The translations under genes and the position numbers were made by a program. A stretch of DNA of 18,068 nt from Candidatus Latescibacterota bacterium (lineage in GTDB: Bacteria; JAAXHH01; JACQVL01), in assembly GCA_016209865.1 (NCBI GenBank), contig JACQVL010000294.1:1-18068 (forward strand), given 5' to 3'. The notes under the pieces were generated by a model. The model ran no database searches. It had not been told where the DNA came from and saw only the letters and a list, made by a program, of their open reading frames with translations. The stretch's first letter is position 1; every line of letters starts with the position of its first letter. This document shows, piece by piece, positions 3,414 to 17,112 of this stretch.

Positions 3414-3441
3414 GTAGGGGCGCAGAATTCTGCGCCCCTAC
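3414..3441. repeat. Perfect 28-bp palindrome between two membrane protein genes
   Basis: Every base from 3414 (GTAGGGGCGCAGAA) pairs with its mirror in the second half (TTCTGCGCCCCTAC), with the centre in an EcoRI-like GAATTC. It starts six bases after the stop at 3407 and ends 14 bases before the Shine-Dalgarno site of the next gene. It is followed by AAAACCCC rather than a T-run, so it does not look like an intrinsic terminator for the plus strand. It resembles the dispersed GTAGGGGCG-type palindromes found between genes in many environmental genomes. Confidence 0.8.
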
Positions 3442-4767: not shown

Positions 4768-4809
4768 TGACCCTCCTACCCCCCAGACTCCCTACCCTAC
4801 CGGGCAGGT

Positions 4810-4902
4810 GGGCAATGGGCAGTGGGCAGTCGAAGCCATTCCCCCGTCCACTGCCTACTGCCCGGTGGGGCCGGGGGGCTGTGCGGGGACTGCCTACTGC
4901 CC
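4810..4902. repeat. Heptamer repeats with inverted arms, between PLP-enzyme and zinc-ribbon genes
   Basis: Three direct heptamers GGGCAAT, GGGCAGT, GGGCAGT occupy 4810-4830. Their reverse complement occurs twice as the pair ACTGCCT ACTGCCC, at 4850-4863 and 4889-4902. The 4817-4830 arm can pair with either downstream copy over 14 bases with one G-U wobble in the plus-strand RNA (an A-C mismatch in the minus-strand RNA), so two alternative hairpins are possible. The block lies between the stop at 4930 and the start at 4767 of two minus-strand genes. Confidence 0.75.
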
Positions 4903-4929
4903 AGGAGAGGGGCCGGGGGTTAGGACTCG

Positions 4930-6018
4930 TCACCGCACCTTGCCCCGCGCGGCGACCGGCCAGACCGTCTCCAGCCGCCCGTTGCGCACCCCGTAGAGCC
5001 GGTCGTGAAGGTTGATCGTCGTGCAGACGTGGCTGGGCAGGATGTGGATCTTGTCGCCGGGACGCAGGCTCACGCTCGCGCCGTCGAGCCGAAGCTTCCC
5101 GTGTTCCTCGGACTGGCCGATGAGCGTCGCCCCGGCGATGTCCCGCACCGACGGGAGGCCGAATTCATTCGTCATCGTCTTCAGCCCGGCGTCCACGATG
5201 GCCAACTCGTCGCCCGGCCGGCTGACGACCGTGGCGTAGACGGTCAGGGCGCAGTCGAACTCCGGGATGATCTTATGGTACGTCGCGTCCATGAACAGGT
5301 ACGACCCGGCCTGGACTTCCGTCACCCCGGGAAACGTCCCGGTGATGTTGTACGTGCCGGTCCCGCCCCCGCTCACGATGTCGACCGGCAAGCCCGCCTG
5401 GGTGACGTACGCCGCCGCCTCGGTCAGGAGTGTCATCGACTTCCGGCATTCCCGTTCCCGCACCGCCTGGTCGGGGTTGGCGATGATATGGCCTTCGTAG
5501 CCCATCAGGCCGGCGAACCGGACGCCCGGCAGCCGGTCGATCAACCGGGCCAGCTCCAGGGTCGGCTCCCCTGGCTCGACCCCGCAGCGGTTCATCCCGA
5601 CGTTGACCTCGATGAGCATTCCGACCGTCGCCCCGACCGTCTGCGCCGCCGCTGCGATCTCACGGACGTTGTCCGGGTTGTCGACCGCCACGAGGATGTC
5701 CGCATGGCGGGCGAGGGCGACCAGCCGGTCGATTTTCGTCCGGCCGACGACCTGGTTGGCGACGAGGAGATCGCGGATGCCGCTGGCCGCCATCACCTCC
5801 GCTTCACCCAGCTTGGCGCAGGTCACCCCTTTCGCCCCCGCCGCGATCTGCTTGTGGGCGAGCGCGGGCGTCTTATGCGTCTTCGTGTGGGGACGCAGGG
5901 TCGCCCTCACCCCCGCGAAGAAGTCTGCCATCCGGGCGATGTTCCCTTCCATCAGGTCGAGATCGATGACGAGCGCGGGGGTATCGATATCTTCGAGCAG
6001 GATGCCGGGGGTTTCCAT
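4930..6018 (-). CDS. D-serine dehydratase / D-threonine aldolase-like PLP enzyme
   Basis: This 362-residue protein is a fold-type III PLP enzyme of the alanine-racemase-like superfamily. It opens with DTPALVIDLDLMEGNI (12-27), followed by LRPHTKTHKT (41-50); Lys46 is the expected PLP lysine. SGGGTGTYN (216-224) should bind the cofactor phosphate. Near the C terminus PSHVCTT carries His330 and Cys332, matching the zinc-binding His and Cys of eukaryotic-type D-serine dehydratase; D-threonine aldolases have His and Asp there. It may therefore act on D-serine, D-threonine or a beta-hydroxy D-amino acid. The start at 6018 has AGGA upstream. The gene follows the Gfo/Idh oxidoreductase by 28 bases and is probably in the same operon. 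Confidence 0.85.
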   Translation of the reverse strand: METPGILLEDIDTPALVIDLDLMEGNIARMADFFAGVRATLRPHTKTHKTPALAHKQIAAGAKGVTCAKLGEAEVMAASGIRDLLVANQVVGRTKIDRLVALARHADILVAVDNPDNVREIAAAAQTVGATVGMLIEVNVGMNRCGVEPGEPTLELARLIDRLPGVRFAGLMGYEGHIIANPDQAVRERECRKSMTLLTEAAAYVTQAGLPVDIVSGGGTGTYNITGTFPGVTEVQAGSYLFMDATYHKIIPEFDCALTVYATVVSRPGDELAIVDAGLKTMTNEFGLPSVRDIAGATLIGQSEEHGKLRLDGASVSLRPGDKIHILPSHVCTTINLHDRLYGVRNGRLETVWPVAARGKVR

Positions 6019-6046
6019 AGATGATCCTTTGTGTGGAGGTGAGGCC

Positions 6047-7048
6047 TTATCTGACCGTCACGACCTGCCCCGTTTCTGCCGACTTGCGTGCCGCTAAGAC
6101 GAGCTGCAGGGATCGCGCCCCTTCGGAGATGGGGGTACGCGTCCGGCCGCCGGTCCGGATGGCGGTGAGCAGGTCGCGCGTCTCCGCCAGGAAAAGGTCC
6201 TTCTGCGAGGCGATGGTCGTCGTGCGGAGCCAGGACAGGTTCGTGTGGTGCAGAGTCGCGTTATTCGAGTCGGTAAACGAGACCGTCAGATGGTCGGTCA
6301 CCAACTCGGCCTGGCTGATCCACTGGCCAGGGATTGCCCCATTCGTGGCGGAGATCGTGGCGATCGCCCCGTTGGCGAACGTCACGACCGTGCCGCTGAC
6401 GTCTTCTGCCGTGTACCCGTCGACGTCCTGGTGGAACTGGTTTCGCATCCGGCTGAAGACCGTCGCCGGTTCTCCTAAGAGATACCGGGCCAGGTCGAAG
6501 GTATGGATGATCTGCTCCACGATCTGGCCGCCGCTCTTCGCCCGGTCGCGCCACCAGGGGCTGTGGAGGGAATTGCACAGATACCGGCCGATGAACAGTC
6601 CCGGCGGGCCTGCCGCGCCGCTCTGGAGCATCTCGGCGACCGTTTCCACGGCTTCCCCGAACCGGAACATGAACCCGACCTGCGACTTGACCCCGGCCGT
6701 TTCGACCGCCCGGAGCATCCGGTTGGCGGTGTCGGTGTCGAGCGCGATCGGTTTTTCGATGAGGAGATGGACACCGTGCGCGGCGGCGAGGTCGACTTCA
6801 TCCGCGTGGGCAAACGGCGGCAGGCAGATGAAGACGAGGTCGAGCGGGACCTCCTCGAACATCCGCCGGTAGTCGAGGTACACGCGGGCAGACCCGTTCG
6901 CGTACTTCTGGGAGAACCCGTCCGCCCGTTCCTGGATCGCATCGCAGCAGGCGACGAGCCGGAGGTCGTCCGTGAGCTGGGTGATGGTCGTAGCGTGCCG
7001 GTTGGCGATCCCTCCGCAGCCGATGATCGCAGTCCGGAATGGGGTCAT
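6047..7048 (-). CDS. Gfo/Idh/MocA family oxidoreductase
   Basis: The protein has 333 residues. The N-terminal Rossmann fold starts at AIIGCGGIANRH (7-18), the nucleotide-binding glycine motif. The family EKP motif is at 98-100 and QVGFMFRF follows at 123-130. GGQIVEQIIHTFDLARYLLG (173-192) contains the usual catalytic His182 and Asp185. These enzymes oxidise or reduce sugars, cyclitols and related compounds with NAD(P); the substrate here is unknown. An in-frame frame extends upstream to 7132, but I use the ATG at 7048 because it has AGGAG six bases before it and the Rossmann strand begins directly after. It leads a probable operon with the PLP enzyme gene. Confidence 0.88.
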   Translation of the reverse strand: MTPFRTAIIGCGGIANRHATTITQLTDDLRLVACCDAIQERADGFSQKYANGSARVYLDYRRMFEEVPLDLVFICLPPFAHADEVDLAAAHGVHLLIEKPIALDTDTANRMLRAVETAGVKSQVGFMFRFGEAVETVAEMLQSGAAGPPGLFIGRYLCNSLHSPWWRDRAKSGGQIVEQIIHTFDLARYLLGEPATVFSRMRNQFHQDVDGYTAEDVSGTVVTFANGAIATISATNGAIPGQWISQAELVTDHLTVSFTDSNNATLHHTNLSWLRTTTIASQKDLFLAETRDLLTAIRTGGRTRTPISEGARSLQLVLAARKSAETGQVVTVR

Positions 7049-7078
7049 GAGGGCTCCTTGGGTGAGAAGATTATTCGC

Positions 7079-7108
7079 TTGCCTCATTCCTATCGTCCCG
7101 TGTATATT
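7079..7108 (+). promoter_or_regulatory. Promoter of murT-gatD
   Basis: TTGCCT (7079-7084), an 18-base spacer and TATATT (7103-7108) point to murT. Transcription would begin near 7115-7117, close to an ATG at 7117 that is in frame with murT. The -10 region is shared with an oppositely directed promoter at 7104-7132. Confidence 0.55.
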
Positions 7109-7132
7109 ATGACTTTGTGCTCGATGACGCAA
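7104..7132 (-). promoter_or_regulatory. Promoter of the Gfo/Idh-PLP enzyme operon
   Basis: On the minus strand TTGCGT (7132-7127), a 17-base spacer and TAATAT (7109-7104) lead to a start near 7097, about 50 bases before the ATG at 7048. Its -10 box overlaps the -10 box of the plus-strand murT promoter, so both polymerases would need the same few base pairs. Confidence 0.55.
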
Positions 7133-7200
7133 GTGTATTTCATGCTGAGCGGAGACAGCCTGATTCCTTCCCGTTCGACGCGGAGGACGTCCGGAGAAGC

Positions 7201-8583
7201 ATGGAACCCCAACTCTTGCGGACCGCCGCCATCACCTTAGGGAAGACGATCACCCGAACCGTCCAGACCTTGCGGATCGGTGGGGGGAGTGCGGCGCCCG
7301 GCTATTTCGCCTCCAAGCTCTACCCGCGTCTGACGACTGACCTCATCCGGCAATTCCCTGACGGGTGCGTGATCGTGACCGGGACGAACGGGAAGACGAC
7401 GACGAGCGCCTTGCTCGCCGGGATGCTCCGCCAGGCGGGGCATGTGACACTCCATAACTTCACCGGGTCGAATATGATGCAGGGCGTGGCGTCCGTCCTC
7501 GTCCAGGCCGCCAGTCTCAGCGGGGAGATCGACGCGTCCCTCGGTCTGTTTGAGATCGATGAAGCGACGTTGCCGCGGGCGATCGCGGAGCTCTCTCCCC
7601 GTATGGTCGTCATGAATAACCTGTTCCGGGACCAGCTCGACCGGTACGGGGAGATCGACACGGTGGCCCGGCACTGGAGACGCTCGTTCGAGAAGATGCC
7701 GGCCGATCACGTCCTGATCGTCAACGCGGATGATCCGCTGCTGAGCGGACTGATCAACGGGGCTCACGGGCGTCTCTTCTATTTCGGGATCGAGGACGAC
7801 CGGCTCGCCATGACGAAGGTCCCCCGAAGCGCCGATTCGATGTTCTGCCAGCGCTGCGGCTCATCCCTGACGTACCGGCGGATCATCCTGTCCCATCTGG
7901 GGGATTACCACTGCCCGGCCTGCGGTTGGGAACGGCCGAAGCCGTCGGTGTACGCGATCAATATCGAAGCGACGCCGGTCTCCTCGCGATTCCGGATCGT
8001 CACCCCCGTCGGGCCGCTCGACGTTCACCTGAACCTGCCGGGGGTGTATAACGTGTACAACGCGGTCGGAGCCGTGACCGCCGCCCTCGCCATGGGCGTA
8101 AACCCGGCGACGATCCGGGCGTGCTTAGAACTGGCCACCACCCCGTTCGGCCGCGGGGAACAGATTAAGACCGGCGACCGGACGGTCCGGCTGATGCTGG
8201 CGAAGAACCCGACCGGGTACAACGAAGTCCTGCGGACGGTGTTGTTCGACCCGCTCCCGCAGCATTACTTCCTGTTGCTGAACGACCGGATCGCCGACGG
8301 ACGGGATGTGTCGTGGATCTGGGACGTGGACTTTGAGAGCCTGGCCGGGCGGACGAAGTCGGTCGTCGTCTCCGGCACACGGGCGGCTGACCTCGCCCTG
8401 CGCCTCAAACACGCCGGGGTGGATGTCACCGCGGTTGATTCTCACGTCGAAGACGCGTTCCACCGGGCGCTGGAGTTTGTCCCCACGAAGGGACGCCTGT
8501 GGACGCTGGCGACCTACACCGCGATGCTCGACTTCCGCCGGGTGATGTTGCGACTGGGACTGGTGAAGGGATTATGGGAGTGA
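7201..8583 (+). CDS. murT: Lipid II isoglutaminyl synthase, Mur ligase subunit MurT
   Basis: MurT is the ATP-dependent Mur ligase subunit that, with GatD, amidates the alpha-carboxyl of D-isoglutamate in lipid II. The 460-residue protein has the Mur P-loop TGTNGKTTT (60-68). A MurT-type zinc ribbon (Cys216, Cys219, Cys238, Cys241) is inserted in the central domain. The C-terminal MurT domain (formerly DUF1727) has AKNPTGYNE (334-342) and DGRDVSWIWDVDF (366-378), the conserved region thought to hold the catalytic aspartate. I chose the ATG at 7201 because GGAG precedes it and the protein then begins like other MurT proteins. An in-frame ATG at 7117, close to the predicted transcription start, would add 28 residues. 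gatD starts three bases after the stop. Confidence 0.93.
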   Translation: MEPQLLRTAAITLGKTITRTVQTLRIGGGSAAPGYFASKLYPRLTTDLIRQFPDGCVIVTGTNGKTTTSALLAGMLRQAGHVTLHNFTGSNMMQGVASVLVQAASLSGEIDASLGLFEIDEATLPRAIAELSPRMVVMNNLFRDQLDRYGEIDTVARHWRRSFEKMPADHVLIVNADDPLLSGLINGAHGRLFYFGIEDDRLAMTKVPRSADSMFCQRCGSSLTYRRIILSHLGDYHCPACGWERPKPSVYAINIEATPVSSRFRIVTPVGPLDVHLNLPGVYNVYNAVGAVTAALAMGVNPATIRACLELATTPFGRGEQIKTGDRTVRLMLAKNPTGYNEVLRTVLFDPLPQHYFLLLNDRIADGRDVSWIWDVDFESLAGRTKSVVVSGTRAADLALRLKHAGVDVTAVDSHVEDAFHRALEFVPTKGRLWTLATYTAMLDFRRVMLRLGLVKGLWE

Positions 8584-8586
8584 ACG

Positions 8587-9348
8587 ATGTCTTTATCGAA
8601 CCTTGACCTTCGCATCGCCGTGCTCTACGCGGACCGGATGAGCATCTACGGGGATTACGGCAACCTCCTCGCTTTAACGAATCGCTGCCACTGGCGGGGT
8701 ATCGATGCGCAGACGGCGCTGATCTCGGTGGGGGACCCGCTCGAGCCGGGGCAGTACGACTTGTTTCTGTTCGGCGGCGGGCAGGACCGGCAGCAGGTGC
8801 TCGTCGCTGACGATCTGCACCGGGGGAGGGGCAAAGCGCTGATCGAATCCGCCGAAGCCGGGGCGGTCATCCTGGCGATCTGCGGCGGGTATCAGCTCCT
8901 CGGCCATTACTACCAGCCGGCAGACGGGCCGCGTATCCCCGGCATCGGGCTGCTCGACGTGTGGACGGTCGCGGGCAACCGCCGCATGATCGGGAATGTG
9001 ATCATCGAATGTGACTGGCTCGAACCGGATACCCTGGTCGGGTTCGAGAACCACAGCGGGAAGACATACTTAGGCAAGACCGGAGAGCCGATGGGACGGC
9101 GCGTCGTGGGGTGTGGGAACAACGGGGAGGATACGTTCGAAGGGTGCCGGTACAAGAACGTCTTCGGCTGCTATCTCCACGGGCCGATCATGCCCCGCAA
9201 CCCGCATTTCGCGGACCTCCTGATCCGGCTTGCTCTCCGGCACCGGTATGGAGACGTTCCGCTTGCCCCCCTGGACGACGCGCTCGAATGGGAAGCCCAC
9301 CGGGCGGCGCTCGCTCGCGCCGGAATCAAGAAGGAGGCGGCGGCGTAA
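8587..9348 (+). CDS. gatD: Lipid II isoglutaminyl synthase, glutaminase subunit GatD
   Basis: GatD is a class I glutamine amidotransferase of the cobyric-acid-synthase-like group. It releases ammonia from glutamine for MurT at the cytoplasmic face of the membrane. The 253-residue protein shows YGDYGNLLAL near the N terminus, FGGGQDR (62-68), the nucleophile elbow AICGGYQLLG with Cys99, GFENHSG (152-158) and the histidine motif YLHGP with His198. These match the Cys and His of characterised GatD. The start is supported by GGGAG six bases upstream, at the end of murT. The gene forms a tight two-gene operon with murT, the usual arrangement. It converges on a PhyH gene 97 bases away. Confidence 0.93.
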   Translation: MSLSNLDLRIAVLYADRMSIYGDYGNLLALTNRCHWRGIDAQTALISVGDPLEPGQYDLFLFGGGQDRQQVLVADDLHRGRGKALIESAEAGAVILAICGGYQLLGHYYQPADGPRIPGIGLLDVWTVAGNRRMIGNVIIECDWLEPDTLVGFENHSGKTYLGKTGEPMGRRVVGCGNNGEDTFEGCRYKNVFGCYLHGPIMPRNPHFADLLIRLALRHRYGDVPLAPLDDALEWEAHRAALARAGIKKEAAA

Positions 9349-9351
9349 ATT

Positions 9352-9365
9352 CAGTGACCAGTGAC
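9352..9365. repeat. Direct heptamer pair CAGTGAC after gatD
   Basis: Two adjacent copies of CAGTGAC occupy 9352-9358 and 9359-9365, three bases after the gatD stop. This is a minimal member of the short tandem repeat class seen at other junctions here. Confidence 0.55.
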
Positions 9366-9396
9366 GAGTAGAACCATCCATAGACTTGCTTTTTCT

Positions 9397-9444
9397 CTCC
9401 TCTGCTCCCCAACTCCTTTGCCCCTTTTCTCCTTTTCGCCCCCC
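9397..9444. repeat. Six octamer units between convergent genes
   Basis: The pyrimidine-rich stretch reads as six consecutive octamers: CTCCTCTG, CTCCCCAA, CTCCTTTG, CCCCTTTT, CTCCTTTT, CGCCCCCC. It fills most of the gap between gatD (ends 9348) and the PhyH gene (ends 9446, minus). No hairpin plus T-run terminator is evident in the gap. Confidence 0.6.
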
Positions 9445-9445
9445 T

Positions 9446-10225
9446 TTACACCCACGGAGCCCGGTCACACCCGCGGAACGGGTAATGGTCGCTGGGACGG
9501 AACTTGGGCAACGGCGGGTAGTAGTTGAGGTTTTCACGCTTCCGGCCCCGGCACAGGTAGACGGGAAACTTCTCCCGTTTGACGCGAGTCGTGGTGGGAA
9601 TGTACCGGAGGGTCAGCCCGCCCCGCCGTCTGTCGGACGTATTGGCCTCGGAGCCGTGGATGATGTACGGGTCGTGCAGAGACACACCTCCAGCGGGCAC
9701 GATGACATCGACCGCCTTCGACTCGTCCACGTACTGTGGGTCGATCCGCGAACTGAGCACGTTCGGACGAGACCGGTCCTCCTGGTGCGGGTACGTGACC
9801 CGGGGCTGATGGGTGCCGGGAATGACGCGCATACAGCCGTTCTCCGGGGTGGAATCGTCCACCGCCAGCCAGATGGTGATGACCTCCATCGGTTCGAGCG
9901 GCCAGTAGTGGCCGTCCTGGTGCCACAGGACGGGATGGCCCGTCCGTGGCGGCTTGCTGATGTAGTGGGCGGCAAACAGCGCGATATCCGGCCCCAGGAA
10001 GGGCTCGATCACGTCGATCAACCGGCTGTCGGTGCAGAGCCGGATCCAGAACGGGTCATCGATGATCAGATGATGGTGGTACTGCTCCGGCCGGATGTCC
10101 GGGTGTTTTTGTCCCAGCCAATCGATGTGGCCGCGCGTTTCCTCGGCCAACTCCTGGTCGATCACGTCCGGAATGACGACACAGCCGTCTTCTTTGTACC
10201 GTGCGACGATGTCTGAACCGTTCAT
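9446..10225 (-). CDS. Phytanoyl-CoA dioxygenase family protein (PhyH 1)
   Basis: This 259-residue Fe(II)/2-oxoglutarate oxygenase has the double-stranded beta-helix iron motif. WHQDGHYWPL supplies His102 and Asp104, and IIHGSEANTSDRRRGG supplies the distal His190 with arginines that bind 2-oxoglutarate. CMRVIPGTHQ (131-140) is the typical PhyH turn before the second half of the barrel. Bacterial members hydroxylate varied small molecules; the substrate here is unknown. I start at 10225 because AGGAG lies nine bases upstream. An ATG at 10246 that overlaps the preceding stop is the alternative and would add seven residues. It is the last gene of an operon with another PhyH and an unknown gene. 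Confidence 0.87.
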   Translation of the reverse strand: MNGSDIVARYKEDGCVVIPDVIDQELAEETRGHIDWLGQKHPDIRPEQYHHHLIIDDPFWIRLCTDSRLIDVIEPFLGPDIALFAAHYISKPPRTGHPVLWHQDGHYWPLEPMEVITIWLAVDDSTPENGCMRVIPGTHQPRVTYPHQEDRSRPNVLSSRIDPQYVDESKAVDVIVPAGGVSLHDPYIIHGSEANTSDRRRGGLTLRYIPTTTRVKREKFPVYLCRGRKRENLNYYPPLPKFRPSDHYPFRGCDRAPWV

Positions 10226-10241
10226 CGAAGGAATCTCCTTA

Positions 10242-10270
10242 TTCATCGTTCATCATTACATCGTTCATCA
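10242..10270. repeat. Heptamer repeats at a gene junction
   Basis: TTCATCG (10242-10248), TTCATCA (10249-10255), TTACATCG (10256-10263) and TTCATCA (10264-10270) follow each other directly. A further TTCATCG at 10221-10227 contains the start codon of the downstream PhyH gene. On the minus strand these words encode the last residues and the stop codon of the upstream PhyH gene. Confidence 0.7.
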
Positions 10271-11067
10271 CTGCTCTTCTCCCGTTCCAGATGCGCCCGG
10301 AGTTCCCGGCCGACCACTCCGATCTGGTGCTTGAAATCCTGGAAGGTATAACTCCGATGGAATTGCCAGTAGCTATTCCAGACTGCGTCCCGTTCGTCGC
10401 GGGCTTCGGCGTACACGGTAAGCGCCCGGCCCAACTCGGTCCGCCTGAAGTTGCGGGACGCCGCCCCGGTCAGGTAATAGCCGTATTTCGGGTTGGCGAC
10501 CTCGTACCCGTACTTGATCATCGAGCGGGGCTTCTCGGAGAGGTGGGCGGCGCGGGCATGGAGAAGCGACGGATAGCAGATCGCTAACGCCCCGGCCTCG
10601 ACGATCAACTTCTGCTGTCCCCGGATCCAGCCCAGCTTGCTCGTCTGGGGCGGCGTGTACAGCCTCCGGTGACTCCCCGGCAGCACCATCGTCGGCCCCA
10701 TCTCCTCCGTGACGTCCTGAGGATAGAACATGCATAGGATTTCCGTCAGCTTCCGGTCCGCCATCCACGTGTCATCGACGTGCCACCCGCCGCCGTCGCT
10801 GAACCCGCCCTTGCTCAGATGATTCCAGAACCGGAACGGACTGATGGCGACATCGAGGGTTTCGAGTAGAAAGGAGATCAGGCGGACGACGCGGGGATGG
10901 CAGAGCAGGTCGCCCACGCTCTCGCGCTCGAAGATGGAAATCCCTTCGTGGCGGCAGGCTTCCGCGTGGATCCGTTCCACCAGCTCCGGCTCGATCCAGC
11001 CGTGCAGGACGATGTACCCGGCGTCGTGGAATTCTTTCTTCAGCGCCTTCAGATCATCATCGTTCAT
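10243..11067 (-). CDS. Phytanoyl-CoA dioxygenase family protein (PhyH 2)
   Basis: The 274-residue protein has the PhyH iron-binding motif GGGWHVDDTW (His96, Asp98). GPTMVLPGSHRR (124-135) is the usual following turn, and SLLHARAAHLSEKPRSMIKY (167-186) provides the distal histidine (His170 or His175) and the 2-oxoglutarate arginine. It is clearly different in sequence from the PhyH protein encoded next to it, so the pair is not a recent duplication. The C-terminal SSDERCNDER tail is encoded by the heptamer repeat at 10242-10270 and is probably not functional. The start at 11067 has AGGAG eight bases upstream. It sits 47 bases after the unknown 134-residue gene and overlaps or nearly touches the following PhyH gene. 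Confidence 0.82.
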   Translation of the reverse strand: MNDDDLKALKKEFHDAGYIVLHGWIEPELVERIHAEACRHEGISIFERESVGDLLCHPRVVRLISFLLETLDVAISPFRFWNHLSKGGFSDGGGWHVDDTWMADRKLTEILCMFYPQDVTEEMGPTMVLPGSHRRLYTPPQTSKLGWIRGQQKLIVEAGALAICYPSLLHARAAHLSEKPRSMIKYGYEVANPKYGYYLTGAASRNFRRTELGRALTVYAEARDERDAVWNSYWQFHRSYTFQDFKHQIGVVGRELRAHLEREKSSDERCNDER

Positions 11068-11114
11068 GTTCTCTACTCCTCCATCAGATGGACAACGAGC
11101 GTGCGTTCGAACGG

Positions 11115-11519
11115 CTACCGCCGGTGTCCGTGTGGAGTGTACGTGAGGCCGTCCCCCTGCGAAAAGAACCGCTCTAAGATGAACTCATGGCCGAGCTGGT
11201 TGTGGGTGTTCTCGGCGGGATACTCGATCGACGGGAACGCGATCACCCGCCAGCCGTCCGCCATCGCCTCCTTGATGTTCTTGTACGGGCATTCGTGCTT
11301 CGGGTCGAACCCGTACTCACTCTCGAACGGCCCGAAGTAATTCCAACTGATCACCCCGGCATCCACCCGGTCCGCCTCCGCCCAGATGTACAGGAGATGC
11401 TGCTGGCGTTCGCCGTCGAGCAACCGCCGCAGCGCCTGGATAGCCTCGGCGGAGACGGCTTCGCCCCTGGCGATCGTCTCTTCGGCCTGACGAAACCAGG
11501 CCTCGACTATGTTGACCAT
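11115..11519 (-). CDS. Unidentified 134-residue protein, first gene of the PhyH operon
   Basis: I do not recognise this protein. It is soluble and small, with a helical N-terminal third (EAWFRQAEETIARGEAVS) and a middle rich in aromatics, including VISWNYFGPFESEYGF (56-71). A short region with WRVIAFPSIEY (89-99) looks like a beta strand followed by a turn. His76/Cys77 and His105/His110 are scattered and do not form an obvious metal motif. GGAGG lies nine bases before the ATG at 11519, and a TTGACA-containing promoter lies further upstream. Its position ahead of two PhyH genes in one transcription unit suggests a related task, but this is only inference from context. Confidence 0.7.
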   Translation of the reverse strand: MVNIVEAWFRQAEETIARGEAVSAEAIQALRRLLDGERQQHLLYIWAEADRVDAGVISWNYFGPFESEYGFDPKHECPYKNIKEAMADGWRVIAFPSIEYPAENTHNQLGHEFILERFFSQGDGLTYTPHGHRR

Positions 11520-11589
11520 GCGTGCTGACCTCCACCCTCTTGCCTGATGCTACTCCTCCATGAAAGCTTTCCACAGAGCGTTGCTACGG

Positions 11590-11618
11590 AAAATGCGATG
11601 CTCCCTGCAATCTGTCAA
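11590..11618 (-). promoter_or_regulatory. Promoter of the unknown-PhyH-PhyH operon
   Basis: The minus strand has a perfect TTGACA (11618-11613), a 17-base spacer and CATTTT (11595-11590), three of six matches. Transcription would start near 11583, leaving a 60-base leader before the ATG at 11519. It diverges from the APC permease promoter at 11656-11684. Confidence 0.45.
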
Positions 11619-11655
11619 GACCGATTCCTGAATCAGCCTCGTTCGATGTTTCTGC

Positions 11656-11684
11656 TTGACAGTCCGCTCAAGTTGTGGTAGTGT
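11656..11684 (+). promoter_or_regulatory. Promoter of the APC permease gene
   Basis: TTGACA (11656-11661), a 17-base spacer and TAGTGT (11679-11684) lie about 80 bases before the ATG at 11766. The -35 is perfect; the -10 matches three of six positions. The leader it would produce contains the repeat at 11701-11727. Confidence 0.5.
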
Positions 11685-11700
11685 GGAATTCCAGATTTGT

Positions 11701-11727
11701 GAGACCCTTCGCTTCGCTCAGGGTGAC
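11701..11727. repeat. Dispersed CCCTTCGCTTCGCTCAGGG-type repeat in the permease leader
   Basis: The element starts GAGACCCTTCGCTTCG and ends CTCAGGGTGAC; ACCCT (11704-11708) and AGGGT (11720-11724) can pair. Read on the minus strand it encodes CHPERSEGS, a chance peptide I know from spurious translations of intergenic repeats in many genomes. It lies between the permease promoter and its Shine-Dalgarno site. Confidence 0.6.
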
Positions 11728-11765
11728 ATGTGGGAAGCGGTTTGAGGGATTCTGAGGAGACCGGT

Positions 11766-13247
11766 ATGGCATCCAACCTGTTCCGCACGAAGAAGCTGGA
11801 TGAGTTGTTCGATGAGACGGAAGGCGTCGAGCGGCTCAAACGCGCGCTCGGCCCGATTGACCTGATCGCCTTAGGCATCGGGGCGATCATCGGCGCGGGG
11901 ATCTTTACGACGACCGGGACGGCGGCGGCGGGGAGCCTGGATCGCTTAGGGGCCGGGCCGGCGCTCATCCTGTCGTTCGTCATCACCGGGGTGGCCTGCG
12001 GGTTCGCCGCCCTTTGCTACGCCGAACTGGCGTCGATGATCCCCATCGCCGGGAGTGCGTACACGTACTCGTACGCGACGTTGGGGGAGCTGATCGCCTG
12101 GATCATCGGATGGGACCTCGTCTTAGAGTACGCGGTCGGGAACGTCGCGGTCGCCATCGGGTGGTCGGGGTATTTCGTCGTGCTGCTGGAGGGGTTCGGG
12201 ATCACCATCCCGCCCTGGCTGACGACCGAATACCAGGCCGGGCTGGCCAACCCGGCGATCCTCAGCGCCGCCCCGCGGCTGTTCGGCTTTCCCGTGCTCG
12301 TCAACCTCCCGGCCGCGTTCAGTGTCGCGGCCATCACCATCATCCTCGTCATCGGGATCAAAGAGAGCGCCCGGTTTAACACCGTGATGGTGGCCATCAA
12401 GCTGGTCATCCTCCTGATGTTCATCGGCGTCGGCGTCTCGTACGTCAGGCCGGAGCACTGGCACCCGTTCATGCCGAACGGCTGGGCCGGCGTCCAGGCG
12501 GGCGCGGCGATCGCGTTCTTCTCCTACATCGGGTTCGACGCCGTCTCGACCGCGGCGGAGGAGGTCAAGAACCCCAGCCGCGACCTGCCCATCGGGATGA
12601 TCGGGTCGCTGGTCATCTGTACCATCCTGTACATCGTGGTCGCGGCCGTGCTGACCGGCCTCGTCCCGTACACCCAGCTCAACACCGCCGACCCGCTGAC
12701 GACCGCCTTACAGGTGCTGCACATCGACTGGGCGGTCGGCCTCGTCGCGTTCGGGGCGGTCATCGCCACCACGGCGGTGCTGCTCGTGTTTCAACTCGGT
12801 CAGGCTCGAATCTGTTACTCGATGGCCCGGGACGGCCTCCTGCCCAAAGTCTTCATGCGGCTGCACCCGACGTTTAAAACTCCTCACGTCAGCACGATCC
12901 TTATCGGTATCTTCGTCGCCCTGCCGTCGGCGTTCTTCGGGATCGCCGAGGTGGTCGAGTTGACGAACATCGGGACGCTGTTCGCGTTCATCCTCGTCTG
13001 CATCGGAGTGATCGTCCTCCGGCGCAAAGACCCCGACCGGCCCAGGCCGTTCCGGTGTCCGCTCGTCCCGGCCGTCCCCATCATCGGCATCGGCTTCTGT
13101 CTTTATCTGATGCTCGGCCTGCCACGGATCACCTGGGAGCGGTTCGGCATCTGGCTGGTTGTCGGATTGCTCCTGTACTTCCTGTACGGACGGAAACGGA
13201 GTGCGTTAAAAGATTCGGGGTTAGGGGTTCGGGAAAGAACAGGATAA
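11766..13247 (+). CDS. APC superfamily amino acid permease
   Basis: This 493-residue inner-membrane transporter has about 12 helices and belongs to the amino acid-polyamine-organocation superfamily, close to the cationic amino acid transporter (CAT/YfnA-like) group. The first helix carries the substrate-binding motif GIGAIIGAGIF (37-47). Helix 6 with its following loop reads FFSYIGFDAVSTAAEEVKNP, the strongest family signature. The likely substrate is an amino acid imported with protons or by exchange. The ATG at 11766 has AGGAG six bases before it; an in-frame GTG at 11730 lies in the repeat and has no such site. The last residues, DSGLGVRERTG, come from a heptamer repeat at 13214-13234. The gene ends four bases before a convergent PhyH gene. 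Confidence 0.9.
   Translation: MASNLFRTKKLDELFDETEGVERLKRALGPIDLIALGIGAIIGAGIFTTTGTAAAGSLDRLGAGPALILSFVITGVACGFAALCYAELASMIPIAGSAYTYSYATLGELIAWIIGWDLVLEYAVGNVAVAIGWSGYFVVLLEGFGITIPPWLTTEYQAGLANPAILSAAPRLFGFPVLVNLPAAFSVAAITIILVIGIKESARFNTVMVAIKLVILLMFIGVGVSYVRPEHWHPFMPNGWAGVQAGAAIAFFSYIGFDAVSTAAEEVKNPSRDLPIGMIGSLVICTILYIVVAAVLTGLVPYTQLNTADPLTTALQVLHIDWAVGLVAFGAVIATTAVLLVFQLGQARICYSMARDGLLPKVFMRLHPTFKTPHVSTILIGIFVALPSAFFGIAEVVELTNIGTLFAFILVCIGVIVLRRKDPDRPRPFRCPLVPAVPIIGIGFCLYLMLGLPRITWERFGIWLVVGLLLYFLYGRKRSALKDSGLGVRERTG
13214..13234. repeat. Three heptamers forming the permease C-terminal codons
   Basis: TTCGGGG (13214-13220), TTAGGGG (13221-13227) and TTCGGGA (13228-13234) are consecutive. 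They lie inside the reading frame of the APC permease and supply part of its final residues before the stop at 13247. Confidence 0.6.
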
Positions 13248-13251
13248 ACAG

Positions 13252-14094
13252 TTACGCTGAATCCCACAGCTCCAATCCCAATAACTTCTTTCCCAGTTCC
13301 GTCAGGTCGGCGGTCTTGCCGTATTGCTGTTCGAGGCCGCGCGGGTCGCCCGGAAACGCTGCGCCGGTGGGGGACAGGCGATCCCGCCACATCCGGATCC
13401 GGTGCTGTCGCGCTTCCTCATTCTTCTCATCCGCAGGATACATGGTGACGTACTGGGCCAGGCGCGGCCGGTCCGAGGTGTTCCGGCCGTTCCCGTGCGG
13501 CAGGAGGCTGTGCCAGATCAGCAGGTCTCCGGCCCGGCCAGGAATCCGTTTCACCGTCAGGTCTGTCAGGTCGGGCCGGTGAGGATGACGATCCGCCGGC
13601 TGGGTTTTCACCCATTCCTCGAACTGCCGGTGGAAGCCGGGGACGCACTGGAACCCGCCCTGGTTCTCGGCGGTGTCGGTCAGGTAGAGCACCCCCTGGA
13701 CTTTGAACGGGATCGGCCGCGCCGCGGTGTCGAGGTCCCAGTGGACCATCCCGGGATGGTCCCATTCCGGCTTGTCCGGCCGGGCGGGAGGCTTCATGTT
13801 CGCCCGATCCATCGAGACCCAGAGTTTTTCTGTCCGCCAGATTTCCGTGAACGCCTGATGAACTCGGGGGTACTGGCGGTTGTTCCACAGCGCCTGGTGC
13901 TGGTAGAGCTCCACCATTCCGCCCTTCCGGTGGGGTTCGCGGTACCAGTCATCCGGGTCGTTCGGGTCCATCCCTAAGAACGTCCAGATCGTGTCGATCA
14001 CCGCATCCAGGTTCGCTTGCGGTACCGCCTGATGGACGATCACGTACCCGTTCTCTTCCCAGAACCCGCGGTCTTGTTCGCTCAGCACGGACAT
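13252..14094 (-). CDS. Phytanoyl-CoA dioxygenase family protein (PhyH 3)
   Basis: The 280-residue protein is a PhyH-type Fe(II)/2-oxoglutarate oxygenase. MVHWDLD supplies His118 and Asp120. GVLYLTDTAENQGGFQCVPGFHR (134-156) is the characteristic strand and turn, and LLIWHSLLPHGNGRNTSDRPRLAQY carries the distal His200 and Arg209/Arg211. GDLLIWHSLLPHGNGRN is a form common in larger bacterial PhyH proteins. The substrate is unknown. GGAGG lies 11 bases before the ATG at 14094, rather far but the best site. It follows a Gfo/Idh oxidoreductase gene on the same strand, 63 bases away with a palindromic repeat between, and probably belongs to the same transcript. Confidence 0.87.
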   Translation of the reverse strand: MSVLSEQDRGFWEENGYVIVHQAVPQANLDAVIDTIWTFLGMDPNDPDDWYREPHRKGGMVELYQHQALWNNRQYPRVHQAFTEIWRTEKLWVSMDRANMKPPARPDKPEWDHPGMVHWDLDTAARPIPFKVQGVLYLTDTAENQGGFQCVPGFHRQFEEWVKTQPADRHPHRPDLTDLTVKRIPGRAGDLLIWHSLLPHGNGRNTSDRPRLAQYVTMYPADEKNEEARQHRIRMWRDRLSPTGAAFPGDPRGLEQQYGKTADLTELGKKLLGLELWDSA

Positions 14095-14125
14095 GGCTCA
14101 GGATACCTCCGCAATAAAGAAATGG

Positions 14126-14145
14126 ATTCCCGCTTTCGCGGGAAT
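14126..14145. repeat. Palindromic repeat between oxidoreductase and PhyH 3 genes
   Basis: ATTCCCGC (14126-14133) and GCGGGAAT (14138-14145) form an 8-bp stem with a TTTC loop, followed by GACAAA. It is the familiar dispersed repeat whose minus-strand translation reads CHSRESGNP. Its right half recurs at 17011-17025 with one mismatch. It lies between two genes transcribed on the minus strand. Confidence 0.7.
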
Positions 14146-14157
14146 GACAAAGACCTC

Positions 14158-15390
14158 TCACGCAATCCCCAGCGCCTCGTCGATCTCGGCCTGGTACGCG
14201 TACACCTGGCAGGTCTCCACTTCACTCATCGTCACCGCTCGATCCGCTTTGGACGACTCGAACATCGCGTAGACCAGGGCCACGTCCTTCAGCCCTTCGA
14301 CCTCGTCCACCTCGATTTTCCGTCCGTTCAGGATGGCCTCGGCCAGTTCGTGATACTCTAAGGCGATCAGCTTCCAATCCACCGCGTCGTCCGCGATGCG
14401 ATCCGGGAAGAAGTGGGCGGCGAGCGGTTCCAGGTCGAACCCTTCGACAATCTTCAGGATCTCCTCGTGGCCGATTTCCTCCTGGCCTGCCAGTCTCATC
14501 CGGGCCCGGCCGCCGCGGGTTCCGTAGCTCTCCAGGCACCCTTGAGTCCCCGCGATGAGTTCCCGACCGCCGCTGGCGTGTCCGCCGATCGTGACGAGCC
14601 AGTTGACGACCACCCCGCTCTCCATCGTGAACAGGGCGAGCGATGTGTCTTCCGCGTCCGCCGGGACGGTCTGTTCCATCGCCTGAAACCGTTTCTGGTA
14701 GAACGTGTACGTATTCCCGATGGCGGAGGGTTTTGTCCTGACCGGCTCGATCAGGCGCACGTTTCCGTAGACTTCCGTGGCATCGCCGAGCTGGTACCGG
14801 ATCAGGTCGGTGTAATGGACGCCCATATCAACGAGCGGCCCGCCCTTCGTCTTGAGGTGCCGCCAGGGGGTGATGAAGATCTCGTTGCCCGGGCTCATCG
14901 AGTGGAGCAGCGCCATGTACGGCGTGCCGATCGCGCCCGTCGCGAGGAGATGATGGACGAGACGGGCGGAGGGGTCTCGACGGTAGTTCTCGGCGACCGA
15001 GAGGACGCGATGGTTGCGGCGTGCCGCGTCGAGCATCATCTGGCAGGCCCCGACGGTGATGGCCATCGGCTTCTCCACCATCACGTGCAGCCCTAAGTCG
15101 AGCGCCTGGCAGGCGACGGTATGGTGGACGGAGGGGTCGGTTACGACGTCGACAGCGGCGAGGTCGGGCGTGTGGCGGGTCATCGTTTCCAGGTCGGTGA
15201 AGATGGCTGGCCGGATGCCCAACAGCTTCTCCGCTTCCGAAGCGGCCAGCTCCGCGTTCTCCCGACGGATGTCGCACAGGGCGCACAGCTCGACGGTGTT
15301 GAACGGACTCTGCGCCAGTTCCCGCAGCCCGTAGAGATGCCGCGTCCCCATCCCGCCGCAGCCGACCAGTCCGATTCTGATGGTGTCCAT
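14158..15390 (-). CDS. Gfo/Idh/MocA family oxidoreductase, 410 residues
   Basis: The Rossmann motif is IGLVGCGGMGTRH (6-18) and the family EKP motif is at 106-108, with AENYRRDP (133-140) after it. GGPLVDMGVHYTDLIRYQLGD (183-203) holds the catalytic His192 and Asp195. It is about 75 residues longer than the other Gfo/Idh protein here; the extra length is in the C-terminal domain, including an acidic VEGFDLEPLAAHFFPDR segment. It should oxidise or reduce a sugar-like compound with NAD(P); the substrate is unknown. GGAGG four bases before the ATG at 15390 sets the start. The gene heads a unit with PhyH 3 and diverges from the methyltransferase gene. Confidence 0.88.
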   Translation of the reverse strand: MDTIRIGLVGCGGMGTRHLYGLRELAQSPFNTVELCALCDIRRENAELAASEAEKLLGIRPAIFTDLETMTRHTPDLAAVDVVTDPSVHHTVACQALDLGLHVMVEKPMAITVGACQMMLDAARRNHRVLSVAENYRRDPSARLVHHLLATGAIGTPYMALLHSMSPGNEIFITPWRHLKTKGGPLVDMGVHYTDLIRYQLGDATEVYGNVRLIEPVRTKPSAIGNTYTFYQKRFQAMEQTVPADAEDTSLALFTMESGVVVNWLVTIGGHASGGRELIAGTQGCLESYGTRGGRARMRLAGQEEIGHEEILKIVEGFDLEPLAAHFFPDRIADDAVDWKLIALEYHELAEAILNGRKIEVDEVEGLKDVALVYAMFESSKADRAVTMSEVETCQVYAYQAEIDEALGIA

Positions 15391-15400
15391 GTGGCCTCCG

Positions 15401-15421
15401 GTAGTCGGTGGTCGGTGATCG
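15401..15421. repeat. Three heptamers upstream of the oxidoreductase gene
   Basis: GTAGTCG (15401-15407), GTGGTCG (15408-15414) and GTGATCG (15415-15421) are consecutive. They begin directly behind the Shine-Dalgarno site of the minus-strand oxidoreductase. Their outer end coincides with the drop in GC content that marks the methyltransferase segment. Confidence 0.65.
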
Positions 15422-15424
15422 GTA

Positions 15425-15453
15425 AAAATCAGCTATGACAGAAAGGTTGACAA
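15425..15453 (-). promoter_or_regulatory. Weak candidate promoter for the 410-residue oxidoreductase gene
   Basis: On the minus strand TTGTCA (15453-15448), a 17-base spacer and GATTTT (15430-15425) point at the oxidoreductase. The -35 box overlaps the TTGACA used on the other strand. The -10 match is poor. Confidence 0.25.
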
Positions 15454-15475
15454 TACATCTGTTTGATTGTACTAT
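15447..15475 (+). promoter_or_regulatory. Sigma70-type promoter of the methyltransferase gene
   Basis: A perfect TTGACA (15447-15452) is separated by 17 bases from TACTAT (15470-15475), a four-of-six -10 box. Transcription should begin near 15482, about 100 bases before the chosen ATG at 15580. Confidence 0.65.
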
Positions 15476-15579
15476 TGAATCGAGCAATTCAGGCTCTAGA
15501 AAATCTCGCTATGAACGACAATTATAGAAGATGGCTTTACATCTGTGTATTTGCTTTTCTCTGTCATGGAAAGAGGACA

Positions 15580-17112
15580 ATGGCACCAACCTCAGACCTT
15601 GAATTAGTCACACTGGCAGAAGCGGCACGAATTGTAGGGAAAAGCCCTCACAATATCCGCGACTATATTCAACGTCAGCGAATCGGCAAATACAACACCC
15701 AGGGCGAGCAAATCAAACGTGCCCGTAATGGTGAATTGTTTGTATCGCTCAAAGAACTCAGAATTTTTTTAGCGTTAATCGAGCAAGGCGATGCAAAGCA
15801 TCACCACGCAGGCTTACATCCCGAATTAGGTTTTCACGGCCTTCCCGAATACAAAAGAACAAAGCATGTTCATCGTTTACATCCGTATCTCGGGAAATTT
15901 ATCCCACAACTGGTCGAGTGGTTTTTATCGCGTTACTTCAAGCCTGATGACGTCATTCTCGACCCCTTTATGGGGTCCGGCACGACGTTAGTGCAGGGCA
16001 ATGAAATGAACATGCACACAATCGGCATTGACATTTCACCCTTCAATTGCCTGATTGCGCGCGTCAAGACGGCCAAGTATGACGTGGTTCAAGCACGCTC
16101 AGAAATCCTGGAAGTTGAAAAACATGTCGCAAATTTTTCCAAGCAACTCACTGGCTCACAGGACGTAAGATTGCCGCTTTTTCCTGAAGACAAAATGGAA
16201 GAACTCAACGCAGGATTACTTGCTGAATGCCAGGGTGAGTATCTCAAGACGTGGTTTGCTCCACGTGCTTTATTAGAAATGTTGTACTACCGTCGGCTCA
16301 TTCCCTATTACAAGTATCAAGACTTGCTGCGCGTCGTTCTGAGTCGGGCAGTACGTTCTTCGCGGCTTATACCGCACTATGATTTGGCGACACCCACAGT
16401 TCCCATTCCCATTGGGGAAAAATATTGGTGCAGAAAGCATAACCGCTATTGTGTGCCGATTGATAACTGTCTGGTAAAAATTCATGCGTATAGCGAAGAT
16501 ACCGCACGGCGACTCGCGGAGTTTGACAAGTTGAGCTCTGATAAGACCGTCACCATCGTGCAGGGCGACGCACAGGAAGTAAACCTGAAAGCAGAGTTAT
16601 CAAAAACTTCAATCGCTGACCGTCTCGTTGACGGCATTTTTACATCACCGCCCTATGTGGGACAGATTGACTACCATGACCAGCATGTTTACGCTTACGA
16701 ACTTTTTGGGCTTCCTCGACAAGACGACTTGGAGATAGGACCCAAAAAACGTGGGAAGTCCAAGCAAGCGCAAAAGGACTATATTAAAGGGATTGCGGCA
16801 GTGTTTCGCAATGCGCGTTCAATGCTCAAGCAGGATGCCAAAGTCTTTGTGGTGGCCAATGACCGTTTTCAACTCTATCCTGAAATTGCTCAATTAAGTG
16901 GATTGAGAATCGTAGAGCAGTTTCATCGTGCGGTCACGAAACGCACGGAGCAAGGTGACGACCCTTACCAAGAGACAATTTTTATGATGGTCAAAGGAAG
17001 CGAGGACAAGTTTCACGGGAATGACAACCGGGGGTCCTTCATTCCGCAATCCTCATTTCGCATTCCGCAATCGAAAGAGGTGTTCTATGGTGCGACCTGC
17101 TGGCCCCACTGA
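15580..17112 (+). CDS. Solitary DNA methyltransferase with N-terminal HTH domain
   Basis: The 510-residue protein is a SAM-dependent DNA amino-methyltransferase (N4-cytosine or N6-adenine). An N-terminal MerR/excisionase-like helix-turn-helix (about 9-65, TLAEAARIVGKSPHNIRDYI) precedes the SAM-binding motif I DPFMGSGTTL (128-137) and then the catalytic motif IV TSPPY (355-359). A Cys/His cluster at 284-297 may bind zinc. The ATG at 15580 has GAGG close upstream; earlier in-frame starts (15463 TTG, 15511 ATG) have no such site. The natural family end is near ETIFMMVKG (465-473). The last 35 or so residues read through a repeat and into the next gene. Base composition is in the mid-40s% GC in sampled lines against 60-70% around it, which suggests recent acquisition. 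No restriction endonuclease gene is beside it. Confidence 0.85.
   Translation: MAPTSDLELVTLAEAARIVGKSPHNIRDYIQRQRIGKYNTQGEQIKRARNGELFVSLKELRIFLALIEQGDAKHHHAGLHPELGFHGLPEYKRTKHVHRLHPYLGKFIPQLVEWFLSRYFKPDDVILDPFMGSGTTLVQGNEMNMHTIGIDISPFNCLIARVKTAKYDVVQARSEILEVEKHVANFSKQLTGSQDVRLPLFPEDKMEELNAGLLAECQGEYLKTWFAPRALLEMLYYRRLIPYYKYQDLLRVVLSRAVRSSRLIPHYDLATPTVPIPIGEKYWCRKHNRYCVPIDNCLVKIHAYSEDTARRLAEFDKLSSDKTVTIVQGDAQEVNLKAELSKTSIADRLVDGIFTSPPYVGQIDYHDQHVYAYELFGLPRQDDLEIGPKKRGKSKQAQKDYIKGIAAVFRNARSMLKQDAKVFVVANDRFQLYPEIAQLSGLRIVEQFHRAVTKRTEQGDDPYQETIFMMVKGSEDKFHGNDNRGSFIPQSSFRIPQSKEVFYGATCWPH
17011..17025. repeat. Half copy of the 14126 palindromic repeat
   Basis: TTTCACGGGAATGAC matches TTTCGCGGGAATGAC at 14134-14148 with one mismatch, and the shared CGGGAATGACAA continues for two more bases. 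Only the loop and right arm are present. It begins where the AT-rich methyltransferase segment ends. Confidence 0.6.
17041..17075. repeat. Five heptamer units ahead of PhyH 4
   Basis: ATTCCGC, AATCCTC, ATTTCGC, ATTCCGC and AATCGAA run consecutively. The 11-base word ATTCCGCAATC occurs at 17041 and again 21 bases later. The block is translated as the tail of the methyltransferase (IPQSSFRIPQS) and ends just before the Shine-Dalgarno site of PhyH 4. Confidence 0.7.

Follow-up and report, generated by a model that had tools for sequence, protein, structure and literature searches.

Heptamer arrays at gene junctions of a Candidatus Latescibacterota genome: probable arms of small palindromic elements resembling miniature inverted-repeat transposable elements

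Why do so many gene junctions within a single stretch of bacterial DNA carry short tandem repeats, each with a word of its own? The question is raised by a contig of 18,068 nt (JACQVL010000294.1; C246 in our set, hereafter the window) from a Candidatus Latescibacterota bacterium. Repeats of seven-base words have, to our knowledge, been described from many bacteria since 1990, with no consensus on their cause. An earlier note on the window had reported runs of 7- or 8-base words at six or more junctions and suggested a replication or repair process that expands any local word lying between genes. Our analysis does not support such a process as the main cause. Instead, the junction repeats are probably the arms, whole or decayed, of small palindromic elements that resemble miniature inverted-repeat transposable elements (MITEs) and insert at gene junctions and in one another. 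Local expansion of words is insufficient because the words form dispersed families, the arms are complementary, both arms of an element are swapped together and elements are nested, and we therefore consider that the elements insert as units.

The genome that contains the window comprises 3.75 Mb in 356 contigs and is 83% complete. In silico analysis was performed on 856 kb of it, in which genes were called by a simple codon-usage script and the remainder (118 kb) was treated as intergenic, with dinucleotide shuffles of the same intergenic DNA as the control for periodicity. Exact intergenic matches of at least 12 nt numbered 41, 47 and 14 at offsets of 7, 14 and 21 nt, respectively, and one at offset 8; the remaining offsets outside the 7-nt series gave 0–4 (mostly 0–2, with 4 at offset 15), and the shuffles 0.0–0.1. 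The pattern was unchanged without the contigs chosen for the word GGGCAGT (33, 37 and 12 at the same three offsets). With a looser score, 192 intergenic arrays were found at period 7, 20 at period 8 and 0–10 at other periods outside the multiples of 7, while the shuffles contained essentially none; in this sample, the comparison with shuffled controls proposed by the earlier note places period 7 far above chance. In the window itself, two period-7 intergenic arrays score at least 10, against none in 300 shuffles, and four are found at a looser threshold of 7, against 0.16 expected (maximum of 2 in the shuffles). On the basis of these offset counts, period 7 is genuine and period 8 is not a separate class: as a second repeat class it was ruled out, with one exact run counted as compared to 41 for period 7, so that of the two unit lengths originally given only 7 stands. 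A tandem 7-nt unit at many intergenic sites per genome is also what characterizes heptameric short tandemly repeated repetitive (STRR) elements, and the likeness to cyanobacterial STRRs drawn in the earlier note is apt with regard to unit length, the occurrence of several words and intergenic setting. Near the contig ends of this metagenome-assembled genome (MAG), arrays were weakly enriched (8 vs. 4.1 expected).

Each junction appears to have its own word only when viewed locally. Genome-wide there are about a dozen recurrent word families, the largest being GAGTGAC with 64 arrays in the 856-kb sample, followed by CGGTGGT (26), GATTTTG (23), GGGCAGT (15), CAGGGGT (13), CGGGGTT (12), AAGGACG (11), GAGTGAA (10), CAGTGGT (9), GCGGATT (6) and rarer words. 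In the whole genome the GAGTGAC double unit, AGTGACNAGTGACNAGT, was found at 556 sites vs. 0 for a reversed-pattern control, and the exact GGGCAGT double unit, GGGCAGTGGGCAGT, at 30 sites vs. 1. All blocks flagged previously in the window, except a weak CTCCTTTT block, fall into these recurrent families.

The arrays are in addition organized in inverted pairs, a feature that had been overlooked. Of the 192 arrays, about half are matched by an inverted partner no more than 300 bp away, and the match scores exceed the highest one in the control. Among array pairs at most 200 bp apart in this genome, a G-rich array precedes a C-rich one in 53 cases and the reverse order does not occur, the 5' arm being the one whose word has at least as many G as C. 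The same word is found, inverted, on both arms in 77% of the pairs, compared to 19% with permuted partners (maximum 37%). Loops are more alike within word families than shuffled loops, and GAGTGAC arms have borders common to this genome and to acidobacteria, namely a C before the first AGTGAC and A-runs both outside and inside the arm.

The design is not confined to one lineage, and GAGTGAC arrays themselves are found in many phyla. A scan of genome contigs with AGTGACNAGTGACNAGTGACNAGTGAC yielded at least 114 loci; they were selected by one period-7 word, and many carry additional words. The matches listed come from Acidobacteriota, Chloroflexota, Cyanobacteria, Verrucomicrobiota, Bacteroidota, Nitrospirota, Omnitrophota, Proteobacteria and other phyla, and among them the G-then-C order was found 83 times and the opposite order 13 times. 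The relatives of the window's genome that were compared, which belong to other genera and families, carry no arrays in 52 kb (G001), one (G012), two (G011) and four with a different word (G013). In a relative of the same order, an inverted pair of TTTGTAC arrays was observed (L236:1813–1914), a word that did not turn up in the genome of the window.

Evidence that words are replaced as whole two-armed units comes from three species of one acidobacterial genus, two sisters with about 95% identity (G059 and G060) and a third at about 87% (G061); the data on word turnover, empty sites, loop inversion and 7-nt length differences come from these acidobacteria rather than from the window's own species. 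Each of the two sisters carries more than 600 GAGTGAC sites. Their alignment covers about 110 kb and, by hand count, about 25 array-bearing junctions, of which some 16 have the same word and seven differ in the word of both arms, as in the case of GAGTGAC vs. GCGGATT at L239:2434 and L239:10697 and GAGTGAC vs. GTCCGTC at L239:4977. At L238:18456 the element is present in only one of the two, while at L238:1086 the loop is inverted (alignment score of 37 as reverse complement and −6 as direct sequence, with a shuffled maximum of 7). A stretch of about 550 bp adjoining array-bearing junctions (L252:9344) was also seen in one sister species only. The word is common to G059 and G061 at only 2 of 11 slots, and three different words within identical borders occur in the three species at 41214, 42427 and 44971 of contig C7 (3 of the 11 slots) as well as at 50679. 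At slot 49587, a 5-bp stop-start gap in two species corresponds to a hairpin of about 150 bp in the third. Misassembly is an unlikely source of the swaps, because the flanking genes are collinear in all species compared, although all of the genomes are MAGs.

Nesting accompanies these replacements. At slot 13507, the GGATGAA hairpin of one species encloses a GTCAGTT hairpin. At slot 41687, a GTGAATC hairpin is flanked by decayed GGATGAG arms in two species, while the third has a plain intact GGATGAG hairpin; read from the sequences, this is plausibly a swap caught midway. The GTGAATC hairpin was also found in the loop of at least five GAGTGAC hairpins. Nesting is present in the window's genome too (L034:6734, L037:6344, L040:18786 and L102:4921). 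A dispersed hairpin, CATTCCCGCGAAAGCGGGAATG, which we take to resemble the dRS3 word of Neisseria, lies at the window junction 14125–14150 and in the loops of many heptamer hairpins (L024, L034, L040, L085, L092 and L102). Terminal inverted repeats, lack of coding capacity, dispersal, and presence or absence among relatives (the last in the acidobacterial genomes only) are together MITE-like features.

Another possibility is that the hairpins are functional RNA or DNA structures maintained by selection, such as bidirectional terminators or stabilizers of mRNA 3' ends, for which any heptamer works and whose words drift or are replaced. The position of the elements just past stop codons speaks for it: in two-armed elements, outer edges beside a stop codon lie about 4–5 bp after it, mostly within −6 to +12 bp. 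Edges beside start codons mostly leave roughly 5–25 bp, room for a ribosome-binding site. Moreover, the arms are flanked by T-rich DNA beyond the 3' arm and by A-rich DNA ahead of the 5' arm: at least three T in 7 nt were counted at 62% of arm ends vs. 18% of random intergenic 7-mers, and TTT at 40% vs. 4%. The T-run is not merely the stop codon TAA, because the enrichment is also found on arm sides facing away from genes. A stable hairpin with a T-run is the arrangement of an intrinsic terminator, but the stems and loops are far longer than those of classical terminators. In addition, the architecture is kept while the word is replaced in three species, and counterparts in Xanthomonas are transcribed (PMC4692102). 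A terminator or 3'-end role would be compatible with position and T-run. However, at least two-thirds of the elements lie between co-directional genes, similar to background gene pairs, and some lie between divergent genes; empty slots are tolerated, and selection alone leaves the dispersed word families and the nesting unexplained. We thus consider selected function unlikely as the explanation of the repeats.

Replication slippage or repair that expands any 7-base word lying between genes, as first suggested for the window, resembles a polymerase-footprint hypothesis for heptamers to which two studies refer (PMC4692102; PMC4679880). The strict 7-nt period in several phyla is in its favor, as is the same-word site L237:15515, at which the sister species differ in length by exactly 7 nt within the array. 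A single array at L072:8371–8421 shifts from GATTTTG to GGACTGG words with the 7-nt register kept, which is also in line with slippage. The words are nevertheless common genome-wide and across phyla, the inverted pairing has a fixed polarity, and whole units are swapped and nested. Furthermore, arm lengths cluster at 31–33 or 24–25 nt, about 4.5 or 3.5 units, rather than spreading freely. Slippage can alter the copy number and not the word, and as the sole cause it is largely refuted by the word families and the concerted changes of two arms; we regard it as quite improbable. Finally, repetitive extragenic palindromic (REP) elements or their paired form (REPIN), moved by REP-associated tyrosine (RAYT, Y1) transposases, are likewise small, palindromic, intergenic, dispersed and inversely paired, but are very unlikely to account for the data given the absence of PF01797 from three genomes (the window's, 83% complete, and two acidobacterial ones; the search was positive in E. 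coli and four other controls), the lack of a fixed GTAG foot and the arms made of heptamer arrays.

Several observations weigh against MITE-like insertion. The only transposase family searched for, Y1, was absent from those three genomes. No unambiguous target-site duplication was seen at the two empty/filled pairs read. Word turnover was observed in MAGs from a phylum other than that of the window's host, in whose genome the loops are mostly unrelated save for nested CATTCCCGCGAAAGCGGGAATG-type hairpins. Co-variation of the arms within one element was tried and rejected, as in the two largest families the match within an element did not exceed that between different elements of the family. 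In the window, moreover, 4802–4907 is the sole two-armed element, and the other junctions have single arms or remnants.

On balance, we still favor MITE-like elements as the probable origin of the junction repeats, and we infer that they move by transposition-like copying. An element would be a non-coding palindrome of about 60–180 bp, in which a 5' arm repeats one G-rich heptamer some 3.5–4.5 times and is separated by a loop from its complementary 3' arm, and a genome would contain many families with one word each. Such elements would disperse as whole units, both to gene junctions, at which the damage is slight, and into the loops of other elements; upon decay of the outer element, the word at the junction would be replaced and the architecture retained. 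Copies may later be edited by slippage in 7-nt steps, affecting copy number, and by arm-arm recombination, inverting the loop. The transcript of a unit would be a long hairpin with a short T-run, and bidirectional termination or 3'-end protection may be its likeliest side effect or selected use. It is possible, although we propose it only tentatively, that STRRs, the GGGAATC and TAACTGA repeats of other bacteria, GAGTGAC and the like form one super-class, scattered over bacterial phyla, of tiny mobile hairpins that have arms of seven-base words, sit in slots at gene junctions, are swapped by nested insertion and are made or moved by a putative seven-nucleotide-stepping enzyme. The swapping of words as whole two-armed units at fixed slots, in steps from one sister species to another, turns the slippage idea into a testable picture of mobile hairpins whose design is constant and whose words vary freely. 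If true, mobile hairpins would account for the recurrence of words across distant phyla and for the location at stop codons, and perhaps for the strict 7-nt unit; the pairs of sister genomes, whose slots may be filled, empty or nested, offer material for finding the machinery.

Regarding the window itself, the features below are on the plus strand unless stated otherwise, with copy numbers from Tandem Repeats Finder (TRF). Its two-armed element begins with a G-rich 5' arm of the GGGCAGT family at 4802–4830 (4.0 copies; period-7 score 12). An inner C-rich 3' arm at 4847–4863 has ACTGCC words complementing the 5' arm (inverted repeat 4817–4833/4847–4863, 88% complementary), and an outer second 3' arm of the same element lies at 4887–4907 (4816–4831/4888–4903, 94% complementary), with 22 bp between it and the stop codon that ends a minus-strand Ala_racemase_N/D-ser_dehydrat gene (4930–6018). 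In a fold of 4770–4935, the outer 3' arm and the 5' arm form a 16-bp stem within a larger structure. The other strong array is a single G-rich arm of the CGGTGGT family at 15397–15423 (array at 15399–15423; period-7 score 12), reported before as a GTGGTCG block, just upstream of the start of a minus-strand oxidoreductase gene (14158–15390). The 13-bp stretch CGGTGGTCGGTTG at 1375–1387, beside the start of the minus-strand gene 211–1365, was read in the sequence and is too short to score; it is probably a remnant of a CGGTGGT arm.

Three of the blocks reported earlier are short or degenerate but recur elsewhere. A single minus-strand array of the GATGAAC/GATGAAT family (TTCATCG on the plus strand) occupies 10242–10269 between two PhyH-like genes (TRF period 7, 3.9 copies, 9% indels), the family being found also at L043:13484, L070:1955 and L078:827. 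A short 5' arm of the CGGGGTT family, with an array of only 17 bp at 13217–13233, lies at the end of a permease gene (13215–13233; period-7 score 7), and a degenerate C-rich arm of the AATCCGC family (CATTCCG), with six arrays in the sample, lies at 17040–17069, upstream of a PhyH-like gene and its ribosome-binding site (TRF period 7, 4.3 copies, 73% match). The weakest block, the C-rich CTCCTTTT-like stretch at 9413–9437 (TRF period 8, 3.1 copies, score 9), is not clearly above shuffles (one period-8 array at threshold 7 vs. a shuffle maximum of 2) and may have arisen by decay of a 3' arm or by chance. A single 5' arm of the GAGTGAC family, CAGTGACCAGTGACGAGT, had been overlooked at 9352–9369 (period-7 score 8); it starts 3 bp past the TAA (9346–9348) of a GatD-like gene. 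Rfam gave no match above the gathering score in the window. A perfect 28-bp palindrome, GTAGGGGCGCAGAATTCTGCGCCCCTAC, adjoining GGGCAGTAGGGG, was observed between two genes at 3414–3441, and GAGACCCTTCGCTTCGCTCAGGGTGACAT at 11701–11730 looks like a further dispersed intergenic palindrome. The open reading frame of an AT-rich DNA methyltransferase (N6_N4_Mtase, 15463–17112) differs in composition from its surroundings and was probably acquired.

Among known systems, heptamer pairs of one word, GGGAATC in Xanthomonas and GGGGA(C/T)T in Nostoc, have the same position and polarity as the elements described here (Rehm et al., 2015; PMC4692102). GGGAATC forms more than 70 inverted pairs per Xanthomonas genome, of about four units, and the G-rich strand lies up to 50 bp past stop codons or, ahead of start codons, is the non-coding one; 83% of the sites were common to two species, and 16% had no recognizable G-rich repeat (PMC4692102). 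The 7-nt unit, the number of about four units, the intergenic setting and the convergent inverted pairs with the G-rich strand near stop codons, or beside starts, are thus shared. However, that study described one word per genome, attributed to G-quadruplex potential, while here a dozen words coexist, most of them without G-runs: GGG is present in CAGGGGT, CGGGGTT and GGGCAGT and absent from the main words GAGTGAC, GATTTTG, AAGGACG and CGGTGGT, which lack the G-tract that such a structure involves. No report of words exchanged between orthologous slots, of nested elements or of inverted loops was found in it. For word swapping at orthologous junctions, no report was found in the openly searchable literature; the novelty is provisional, because subscription papers lay outside the search. 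The small dispersed repeats (SDRs) of Nostoc, described by Elhai et al. in 2008, reportedly insert both into heptamer arrays and into one another; nesting and the association with heptamer arrays would be common to both, but SDRs measure 21–27 nt.

The elements also resemble REP/REPIN and MITE sequences (PMC3733652; PMC3116915) in being dispersed small intergenic palindromes, nested or paired, and are unlike REP/REPIN in the points given above and in comprising many unrelated families of one design. The TAACTGA heptamers of Beggiatoaceae, cyanobacteria and Bacteroidetes (MacGregor, 2015; PMC4679880) are likewise intergenic 7-mers by start codons, patchy across phyla and suspected of horizontal spread; unlike the paired arms here, they are nearly all direct repeats, with one inverted case, and related heptamers are rare in that genome. 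Finally, in the P6b stem of the Nostoc trnL intron, two heptamer classes, TDNGATT and NNTGAGT, are interchangeable (PMC4476775). As in the elements described here, the sides of this stem are complementary heptamers with interchangeable words at one site, and the TDNGATT class matches the GATTTTG family (TTGGATT). P6b is, however, a single intron site with two classes, while in the genomes analyzed here the same principle extends to hundreds of gene junctions and many classes.

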